Shown: one piece after another, positions 3,938 to 7,070 of the stretch | Position numbering within the stretch: the first letter of the stretch is position 1 | Layout of the letters: the number at the start of each line of letters is the position of its first letter | Assembly: GCF_036370855.1 (NCBI RefSeq) | Contig: NC_088099.1 | Span: forward strand, 140,437,517 to 140,501,516 | Direction: 5' to 3' | DNA from: Dromaius novaehollandiae | Taxonomy: Eukaryota; Chordata; Aves; Casuariiformes; Dromaiidae | Length of the DNA: 64,000 nt | Translations under genes and position numbers: made by a program | Notes under the pieces: generated by a model | Told to the model about the DNA's origin: nothing | What the model saw: the letters and a program-made list of their open reading frames with translations, nothing else | Database searches by the model: none

Positions 3938-4135
3938 AGGCTGTTGACTGATGCATTTGGTGAGCTGATTGCTTTTCAGAGAGCATTAAAAGATTTAGTT
4001 GCTCCTGATTTCAAACATTTGGAAATTTTAGTGTTGGGTTTGAAGGAAGCTTTGGAGCAAATCATGTCTCTCCTCGTCTGCTATCAGCTCGTTTCCTTGG
4101 TAGCTTGGGCTGTGTGGAAGGAATTGTGACAGAAC
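3938..4135 (+). pseudogene. MCM3-like remnant, exon a (N-terminal domain), frameshifted
   Basis: Translation from 3938 reads RLLTDAF then ELIAFQRALKDLVA, very close to the MCM3 N-terminal domain. After GL the frame is lost at about 4042-4043, where one base appears to be missing. From 4045 the next frame reads [19 protein letters not shown] and then CVEGIVT, again MCM3-like. A GTAATT donor-like site follows at 4136. Confidence 0.83.
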
Positions 4136-4990
4136 GTAATTATTTTGGGTTTAAGCTTTATTGTAACTCTGACTATGTTTTGTCTCTCAGCTGTATGAAA
4201 AGCAATATGCGTTATTTGTCATTTTTTAATTTGCAACGGTAAGTATTAATATAACATTTTCCCTCTGCTCTGCCAGTGCCGCTTGTCATGTTGGGTCCCA
4301 GCTGTCTGAGGAGAACGACTAATCCCCAGCGTGTGGCTGCGGTCAGGAGTCGTCCTTGCTGTGCCAGCCGCCGAGGTTAGACGGAGAGCGGGGATCTCTG
4401 GCAGGACGGCTGTTCACAAGTGGGTGTCTTCATACACATCAGTGGATTAATGGGAACTTAGAGTAACACAGGCACTGAAATAATAATATAGGCAACTTCC
4501 ATGAATGCTGTAGCACACCACTGTTCCCTTCCTCGTCGTCCCACTCCGTGACGGTGACTGTAGGAGCTGCCATCTGTCCTCCGTGTGTGAATCGAAATTT
4601 CAAACGGGCACATCAGCAGACATAGTTTTCTTAACTTTTGTCAGGACTGGCTTGGAATGAACTTGATATAAAATAGGAGGGTTTGTTTGTTAGTGAATGG
4701 GTTAAAAAATTCTTGTCAATATTGTTTCAAGTGTTACTAATTCTGTTATAATTTTCTTCTGTAATTGATACAAAAAACATCCATGAAGGGTTACCTCCAT
4801 ATTGTATGAAAGCAAAAGTTCATTATCATGCTCTGAAACAACTTCCTCCAGCTGTATCCCTCAAAGGGTCGTGCAAAAATTGTGCTGCATATCCAACAAG
4901 GTTTAAAGAGCATTGCTAGTGAATGCCATTAGGGTGCTGTTTGATACCTTTACCTGGCGCAACCTGCTTTAATGTACCTGGCTTGCTCAG

Positions 4991-5197
4991 GATGAGGCAA
5001 ACGGGAGCCTGACAGTGCAGCTGGGGTGGCCGGGCTTAAGCATCCCGGAGGTGCCTGGCGAAGCAGCAGCTGGGCAGTGTCCTCGCGCCATGGCGCTGAG
5101 CGCAGATCTGGGCTCCTGGGAGGAGACCACATCCGGAGGTGGCACAGGGCATGCTTCAGGAAGATCCTGCTGCCCCCTCACACCAGGGAAGCTTCAG
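4991..5197 (+). pseudogene. MCM3-like remnant, exon b, degenerate
   Basis: After an acceptor-like TTGCTCAG (ending 4990) the frame reads DEANGSLTVQLG, then IPEVPGEAAAGQCPRA, matching the MCM3 segments DEENNPLETEYG and QEMPEKAPAGQLPRS at many positions. The rest aligns only with small deletions: nucleotide traces of the GDR and RCLPGK segments and a final GSFR-like end are in different frames. The expected donor GT at 5198 reads AT. The GC content is higher than the flanks, as expected for former coding sequence. Confidence 0.68.
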
Positions 5198-6710
5198 ATT
5201 TAGCACCCAAGGGTGCGATGAGGAACTTTAACTAGGAGTAAGGAGAAATTTCAAACCATCAGAGCAGTGAGGTCTGGACAGTTTTTCCTTAAGGATCCAC
5301 TCCAGAAGATCCTATTTTTTTGGAGCCAGAAACAGTGCTCACCTGTGGTTGCTGATGTCTGCCGCTCTCAGTGCCCAGCAGGGATGTCTGCTGGGCTTTT
5401 TGTGGAGCTGAGACTAACCGTTTCCACCCTAATGTCCCAATATTTCCATGTTCTTTTGCCAAGTTTTCTCTTGTTATTTGGCTCTGGATCCTCCCTAATG
5501 GAAGCCGAATTTTCATTGAGTAGTCTTGCTGCGCTTCCATGAAACTAGCCCCTACAGAAAGGCTCTTCGTGCATGGTTGGTGCAGATTCATGGCTTAGTG
5601 CTGACACTGTCATGGCCAAATTTAGCATCAAGAAGAGCTTCCCAAAGCAGAGGTTTGCCTTATGTGTAGAAGTTGTTATATCTGAGGCAGACGTCATCAA
5701 AACATGAAGGTCCATTAGGAGTATTTGAGGCAAAACTCTGCCGGCTTAAGCTGGAATTTGGTTAATTTATGAAATGGAAGATGTGCTTGGTCTGCCTGTG
5801 AGAGCTCAGCCTGGTCGCAGAGACCCAGCTCCTTCCAAGCTTGACTCCTGTGCTTTTCCTTTCAGCACAGTGTGGTGAAGCATTGATTGGTTTTCTTTTT
5901 AAGTTCTCTTACCTGGGAAAAAGGACTATGCCTTGGGGGGGGGTGGGGGGCAGTATTGCTCATGTGGAGACTTTGAATTATATTCATTTTTTTCTCTAGA
6001 TAATTTATATTGATTGTACTTGCTCCTCCTGAAAGCATTTCCTTATGGCATTTTTCAGTAGTCACCTTTCTTACAAGCACTTCCCTTTGAAATTCTGGGT
6101 GCTGTAAGTTAATGAATGATCAATAGTTTTAGAAACTAGAAGCCAAAGTGTTGTTTCCCTGCTTTCTGTTTCAAAAATTTGGTTTCTGAGATGATTACTT
6201 CTTCTGGCTGTGTGTGCTTTACAACAGTTGTCTGATGAGTGTTTAGACGAGCATCTGACAAAGCCCAAGTGTCTGATGAGCCCTTTGAAGACAAAGCAAA
6301 AAATGAGTTGTCCTGCCTATCTTTCCTCCAAAGTTAGAAATGCCCCAACTCCAAAATACATTCTCTCCCAAATATGTATCTCTTGCTTCACAGAATACAG
6401 ATATCAAGTCCACTAGTATATAGGGGGGCAGAGAAGAGATGAAATCCCAAAGCTGTGCTATGTATTTCTAGCTCTTTTGGATTCTGATGTTGAAACTTCG
6501 TTAAATCCTCTTTCAGAGCAGGTTTCACTGACTAAGCCATAATAAAATAGACAAATCTAATAATTTCTTTGAATTTGATTCTGCTTGTACTTTCTCTTTC
6601 CTAAGCAGCTTTTTGTGTTATGAAGACAATAGTCCAGCATGTATTTAATAGTTAATCTGTTTAATAGTTAATCTTGTGACATTTCTCTGCATCTGGAGGA
6701 AAATACCCAG

Positions 6711-6819
6711 GACAATAATGTTGGCTAATAATATCAAACTGATGAGCAAAGAAATAGCACCCACATTTTCAGCTGATGATGTGGCAAAGATCAAGAAATT
6801 CTGCAAAGCTCAAACTAAA
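6711..6819 (+). pseudogene. MCM3-like remnant, exon c, open
   Basis: An acceptor AATACCCAG precedes an open block reading TIMLANNIKLMSKEIAPTFS, then ADDVAKIKKFCKAQTK. It corresponds to the MCM3 linker just before the AAA+ module. It ends at a consensus donor, GTAAGT, at 6820. Confidence 0.88.
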
Positions 6820-6916
6820 GTAAGTTATAAATTGCACTAATACTGGCTAATGGATAATGAGATTCCGTTCTAATGTTGGTAATGTGCAATGTAAGTGTTT
6901 CCTGTTTCTTAAATAG

Positions 6917-7070
6917 GATATCTTTGACCATTTAAGCAAGCCTTTAGTACCAAGTGTTCAGGGCCATGAGTATATTAAAAAAGCCATTTTGTGTATGCTT
7001 CTTGGAGGTAATGAGAAAGTTCTCAACAATGGGACACGCATTAAAGGAGACATCAATATCTTATTATTAG
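6917..7070 (+). pseudogene. MCM3-like remnant, exon d (start of AAA+ domain), open
   Basis: After CTTAAATAG the frame reads [19 protein letters not shown], then [12 protein letters not shown] and [14 protein letters not shown], clearly MCM3-like. The block stops just before the Walker A loop, in phase 1, as the MCM3 family exon does, and is followed by a good donor, GTAAGAG, at 7071. No downstream exon was recognised. Confidence 0.92.

Follow-up and report, generated by a model that had tools for sequence, protein, structure and literature searches.

A probable relic of the maternal MCM3 gene in Dromaius novaehollandiae

Where did the maternal MCM3 gene go in the lineage of Dromaius novaehollandiae, apparently a bird? 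Frogs and fish have both MCM3 forms, and the canonical fish mcm3 is the more homologous to mammalian Mcm3 (PMC7179931, in the text available). During cleavage the replicative helicase takes its MCM3 subunit from the maternal form (MCM3L); this holds for zebrafish and, according to the literature, for frog. Mutants of zebrafish mcm3l have a strictly recessive-maternal phenotype, with arrest at mid-blastula (available text of PMC7179931). According to the accessible part of PMC5295036, maternal MCM3 is without a nuclear localisation signal. Two Mcm3 proteins are given for Xenopus and Naegleria only, among 37 species, in the excerpt of PMC2667178. The name 'mcm3l' in the accessible text of PMC4608254 is an unrelated usage, for a mouse Lox allele.

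We analysed a stretch of 64,000 nucleotides of contig C2 (the window; positions below are those of the window unless a contig is named). A preliminary description had noticed MCM3-like blocks at 3938-7070 and had suggested the relic of a separate MCM3-like paralogue, with the maternal and zygotic forms of amphibians as the parallel, that was lost in this bird or its ancestors. Our results support that suggestion. We found that the window very probably holds the maternal MCM3 paralogue (frog mmcm3, zebrafish mcm3l) as a unitary pseudogene, probably at its ancestral place, and that this relic most likely points to where the maternal gene went in this lineage. Unitary pseudogenes and exonic remnants after genome duplication are known classes. 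Loss of maternal MCM3 had already been inferred earlier: Shinya et al. (Cell Cycle, 2014) reportedly inferred it for most vertebrates.

We found that the homology to MCM3 is real. With the frog maternal protein as query (letters of the PDB entry), tblastn found the two clean blocks at an E value of 5.5e-37 and the upstream pair at 1.5e-16, and the frameshift-aware scores of exons 3, 6 and 7 (Table 1) lay far above the noise ceiling. The matches followed one another in order on the + strand, at 3941-4003, 4018-4134, 4988-5107, 6709-6819, 6917-7072, 9775-9870 and 12788-12907; the three weaker remnants, of exons 5, 8 and 10, had E values of 0.015, 0.011 and 0.001. Up to E 10, everything in the tblastn output beyond these seven collinear matches had an E of 2.5 or weaker. 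The joined translation of exons 6 and 7 (6718-6819 plus 6917-7072) aligned to MCM3 along its entire length in a search of PDB chains. Its best match was 8q6o_B, the frog 'Maternal DNA replication licensing factor mcm3' (155.2 bits, E 2.7e-45), human MCM3 reached 112-113 bits, and the best 14 of the 60 matches listed were MCM3, ahead of any other MCM. The Pfam MCM domain was found in the same translation (1e-14); Pfam found no domain in two single-frame open stretches that span the upstream blocks.

Table 1. Positions of the relic exons, of the neighbouring genes and of the C2/C3 pairs. Scores are from the frameshift-aware search.
Feature	Position	Strand	Remarks	Score
Relic exon 3	3940..4135	+	196 nt; 209 nt in own MCM3	177
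Relic exon 5	4991..5207	+	badly decayed; AG acceptor at MCM3 position, phase 0	70
Relic exon 6	6711..6819	+	length 109 nt, equal to own MCM3; frame open; acceptor and donor intact	171
Relic intron 6	6820..6916	+	97 nt, GTAAGT...AATAG; counterpart in own MCM3 785 nt	
Relic exon 7	6917..7070	+	length 154 nt, equal to own MCM3; frame open; acceptor and donor intact	235
Relic exon 8, 3' part (GRGSSGVGLTAAVT region)	9775..9868	+	two in-frame stops	65
Relic exon 10, part (QDSLLSRFDLLF region)	12788..12907	+	two frame breaks	61
MEP1B, right-hand neighbour, two astacin-domain exons	31674..33203	-	PF01400 at C2:140469190-140470719	
GAREM1-like gene, left of the relic	C2:140348968-140415519	+	CABIT match	
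EB1 pair	C2:139.10 Mb / C3:0.70 Mb			
ASXH pair	C2:139.82 Mb / C3:1.04 Mb			
CABIT pair	C2:140.35-140.42 Mb / C3:1.24 Mb		proteins 71% identical over 171 aa	
MCM3L relic / MCM3 pair	C2:140.44 Mb / C3:4.50 Mb		same slot	
Meprin beta / alpha pair	C2:140.47 Mb / C3:7.13-7.15 Mb			

Because the matches carry stops and frame breaks, the frog maternal protein was cut at the intron positions of the bird's own MCM3 into 17 exons, and each peptide was used in a frameshift-aware protein-DNA search of 94 kb (the window and 30 kb to its left) on both strands. Six of the 17 coding exons (3, 5, 6, 7, 8 and 10) were detectable, all on the + strand and collinear between 3940 and 12907. The top score outside these six places was 46, and 46 was also the best score among 34 control searches, in which each of the 17 exon peptides was reversed and run against each strand; this value was taken as the noise ceiling for accepting an exon. 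In shuffles run interval by interval, the scores of the weak remnants were never reached (0/20 for exon 5, 0/20 for exon 8 and 0/12 for exon 10). Exons 1, 2, 4, 9 and 11-17 did not rise above noise anywhere in the 94 kb on either strand, so that the C-terminal exons of the relic were not found in this search. A further search for exons 1, 2, 4, 9 and 11-13, interval by interval, stayed below the ceiling, and own-MCM3 peptides for exons 1, 2, 4, 9, 11, 12, 13 and 17, searched on the + strand, gave nothing above 46. Three candidates were not accepted, all below the ceiling: exon 12 at 21702-21804 (score 37, above 12 of 12 shuffles), exon 13 (score 33, reached by one of 12 shuffles) and exon 2 at about 1946 (own-MCM3 peptide, score 40).

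This anatomy changes the earlier picture of the locus in several respects. Four collinear MCM3 blocks on one strand had been described as matching consecutive parts of the protein; their order and strand hold, and exon 5 lies between the second and the third. The relic does not end at 7070, because exons 8 and 10 follow, almost 6 kb further right. The first two blocks (about 3941-4003 and 4018-4134), thought to be separated by an intron, are a single exon 3 with a net deletion of 13 nt, which disrupts reading somewhere between about 4003 and 4018; the aligned path is without a stop codon. The donor that had been called lost is present: exon 3 keeps its AG acceptor at phase 2 and its GT donor at phase 1, the latter reading C|GTAATT, as against T|GTGAGT in own MCM3, in the right phase. 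Exon 5 has one frame break. Exon 6 begins at phase 2 and ends at phase 0, exon 7 begins at phase 0 and ends at phase 1, and exon 8 keeps its GT donor at phase 1. The lesions thus come to the 13-nt deletion, two stops and three further frame breaks, along with 11 undetected exons.

Three other features lie in or near the relic. A 16-bp unit is perfectly duplicated in tandem at 6644-6674, just 5' of exon 6. Intron 7 holds a 206-codon stop-to-stop open frame on the - strand (8734-9354). A tandem repeat of about two 91-bp units, with 74% matches, lies at 17627-17818. The window was without any Rfam match at gathering thresholds, and of five stretches that matched a pattern of viral contigs none was confirmed.

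We found that the relic kept the introns of MCM3. The splice positions and phases of its surviving exons agree with those of own MCM3, and its exons spread across 9 kb. A processed pseudogene has no introns. The possibility that the relic is a processed (retrotransposed) MCM3 copy, already dismissed in the preliminary description on the strength of the retained introns, is thus virtually excluded by the conserved intron positions; we found no point in its favour.

We located the bird's own MCM3 at C3:4503183-4514664, separate from the relic on C2. Its exons 1-8 splice to an open frame and its later exons were matched singly, unspliced; it is apparently a live gene. When the frog maternal protein was compared with the 1.47-Gb assembly, this locus (C3:4.50 Mb) and the relic were the only MCM3-like places among the 42 scored matches, and the strongest match outside MCM3, on C34, was MCM7. 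At the level of MCM3, the best candidates thus included no intact second copy: only MCM3 on C3 besides the relic. As a separate observation, PF00493 marked eight MCM loci besides the relic among the scored candidates: C34 (MCM7), C2:138.7, C12, C3:4.5 (MCM3), C3:55.8, C3:128.9, C1 and C7.

The lesions, the 11 of 17 exons undetected and the separate MCM3 elsewhere lead us to read the relic as a unitary pseudogene, that is, a non-processed gene with disabling lesions. Our results might also indicate a live but divergent MCM3L, whose absent exons and lesions would be assembly errors or would lie beyond the stretch searched. The pristine exons 6 and 7, with their intact splice sites, would suit a live gene. 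However, the remnants of exons 5, 8 and 10 are each wrecked in situ, exon 8 with two stops, the search of 94 kb left 11 of the 17 exons below noise, and among the 42 scored matches in the assembly no further one was MCM3-like. We consider a live gene very unlikely.

We found that the kinship of the relic is closer with frog maternal MCM3 than with own or human MCM3. We aligned the relic with frog maternal MCM3, own MCM3 and human MCM3 over 147 residues from exons 3, 6 and 7 that can be read directly; exons 5, 8 and 10 were excluded, as was the frame-broken centre of exon 3. The relic was identical to frog maternal MCM3 at 121 residues (82%), to own MCM3 at 97 (66%) and to human MCM3 at 93 (63%); human and own MCM3 were identical at 124 of the 147. 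The quartet that joins the relic to frog maternal MCM3, to the exclusion of both MCM3 sequences, was favoured with 100% bootstrap (500 replicates) and with informative sites 17:0:0. Both alternatives were worse by 58 lnL (AU about 1e-9 and 2e-8). The relic branch was the longest (0.167), as decay would give, followed by human MCM3 (0.095), own MCM3 (0.078) and frog maternal MCM3 (0.032). The quartet is unrooted, holds neither frog zygotic MCM3 nor an invertebrate outgroup, and takes its root from the literature.

The same tree bears on whether the relic is a recent segmental duplicate of own MCM3, in which case it should have fallen inside avian MCM3. The intron positions, being those of MCM3, would be expected of such a duplicate. 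However, none of the 17 informative sites favoured it. The block of 375 bp from exon 6 to exon 7 had two matches in the assembly, itself and MCM3 exon 7 at 73%; exon 6 and intron 6 matched nothing of own MCM3 DNA. Barring massive convergence the quartet refutes a recent duplicate, and we regard that origin as exceedingly improbable.

A relic of the maternal gene remains the reading most consistent with our data, and its exons have decayed unevenly. In aligned codons, identity to frog maternal MCM3 was 33/36 for exon 6 and 42/51 for exon 7, the level of a live orthologue, and 48/64 for exon 3; the wrecked exons had 21/57 (exon 5), 16/32 (exon 8) and 22/39 (exon 10). Yet exon 6 is, of these six exons, the one in which human and own MCM3 agree least (26/36), and exons 8 and 10, which fall so far in the relic, hardly differ between the two (45/45 and 55/58 identical). 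We fitted the neutral substitution per site of each exon, with its human versus own MCM3 identity as a stand-in for the live baseline. The fitted values were 0.00 for exon 6, 0.03 for exon 7 and 0.09 for exon 3 (0.08-0.115 across fits), and exon 5 took 0.41, exon 8 0.315 and exon 10 0.235. A single decay value for all exons was worse by 2dlnL 64.7 (df 5), or 38.0 with exon 5 dropped; with flat baselines of 0.87 and 0.95 it was worse by 47.7 and 48.6. When exons 6-7 were set against exons 3, 5, 8 and 10 together, they took values of 0-0.05 versus 0.215-0.25, and this split, chosen post hoc on the same data, gained 2dlnL 27-41 for one extra parameter.

The unevenness could reflect selection after the death of the gene or differing local decay rates, or the contrast could be inflated by the alignments of exons 5, 8 and 10, which are short and ambiguous. 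We therefore considered a refinement of our reading, not an alternative to it: the helicase would be dead, and exons 6-7 (the 360-bp stretch 6711-7070) would have been retained under selection for another task, as a regulatory element (acting, e.g., on GAREM1 or on MEP1B) or in a transcript, non-coding or short coding, that includes them as exons. The fitted difference, which persists without exon 5, argues for it, and at 0.2 substitutions per site exons 6-7 would keep open frames and intact splice bases with a probability of 0.0006-0.005. Exonic enhancers are a described class (PMC13216554 and PMC4745165, each in the part available). However, the two classes were made after inspection of the data, the decay of exon 3 is likewise mild, the live identity of each exon is a stand-in, and exons 5, 8 and 10 align over short stretches. 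Mutation rates may also differ, as the exon 5 remnant (4991-5207) is 64% G+C and 6711-7070 is A+T-rich (34% G+C), as against 44% for 3900-13000; the high G+C of exon 5 might have sped its decay. The contrast is known, moreover, from one bird genome. Reuse of exons 6-7 is possible, if on balance unlikely.

We found that the neighbourhoods of the relic and of MCM3 are paired. The right-hand neighbour is MEP1B: its astacin exons lie on the - strand, so that its transcription is directed towards the relic, and they score higher with meprin beta (130 bits) than with meprin alpha (86 bits). We picked four neighbour families (EB1, ASXH, CABIT and meprin) from the human gene order. The analysis itself gives domain matches; we take EB1, ASXH and CABIT to stand for MAPRE, ASXL and GAREM genes. 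Each of the four is paired between C2 and C3, and the order around the relic matches that around MCM3. The strands of the pair members are concordant for EB1, ASXH, CABIT and MCM3 and discordant for meprin. The C3 block is dispersed over 6.5 Mb, and the pairing concerns the four families tested, not the genes between them. EB1 and ASXH have one extra locus each, both on C16; additional astacin and CABIT loci lie on other contigs, with more CABIT loci on C3 itself, at 59.9 Mb.

Since these neighbour families are paired in the same order on C2 and C3, MCM3 and MCM3L appear to descend from an ancient duplication of a block or of the genome; the paired blocks would most simply go back to the early vertebrate genome duplications. 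We suggest that the maternal MCM3L gene sat between the GAREM1-like and MEP1B genes, probably its ancestral place, and that this duplication, of a block or of the whole genome, gave rise to MCM3, MCM3L and the genes around them alike. MCM3L would then have died in this lineage, most of its exons decaying past recognition, and the single MCM3 on C3 presumably serves both egg and embryo. That the frog and fish maternal genes share this neighbourhood, the date of the loss and the take-over by MCM3 are the parts of this account that we infer. Among the points that count against it, exons 6-7 look alive, not dead, the orientation of meprin differs, and the evidence comes from one genome. Further points are the root taken from the literature, the spread of the C3 block and the additional astacin and CABIT loci.

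The relic can be compared with known genes. It shares its side of the quartet with Xenopus mmcm3 (PDB 8q6o_B); the frog gene, unlike the broken and mostly unrecognisable relic, is live, and its protein is in a solved structure. Zebrafish mcm3l, a cleavage-stage MCM3 paralogue alongside canonical mcm3, is probably the same gene, but it is live and required, and we liken it to the relic by its description, not its sequence (PMC7179931, in the text available). Own MCM3 has an exon-intron plan identical for the surviving exons of the relic, but both it and human MCM3 are clearly less similar to the relic in sequence, and it stands, apparently live, at a separate locus. As in other unitary pseudogenes and exonic remnants after genome duplication, the lost gene is recognisable by exon remains in place; what sets the relic apart is a pair of neighbouring exons that stand out as far better preserved than the others. 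Among the literature matches listed there was no report of a bird maternal MCM3 relic (most subscription journals lay outside the search), and the accessible text of PMC9538152 held nothing relevant to one.

If our reading is correct, the relic is physical evidence that this amniote lineage once had an egg-specific MCM3 and then lost it. It gives an exact place to look for MCM3L in other reptiles and birds, and with it a way to test when the eggs of amniotes dispensed with a helicase subunit dedicated to cleavage. The paired neighbourhoods suggest, in addition, how old the two MCM3 genes are, both dating from the ancient duplication.

Two further observations concern the surroundings. The right end of the window (62001-64000) reaches a G+C of 56% and has long overlapping open frames; it is possibly the CpG-rich start of another gene. 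On C3, two adjoining meprin-alpha-like astacin loci (C3:7130224-7130880 and C3:7144065-7147887) lie about 13 kb apart and match meprin alpha with 89.7 and 132.8 bits, perhaps as a tandem duplicate of MEP1A.
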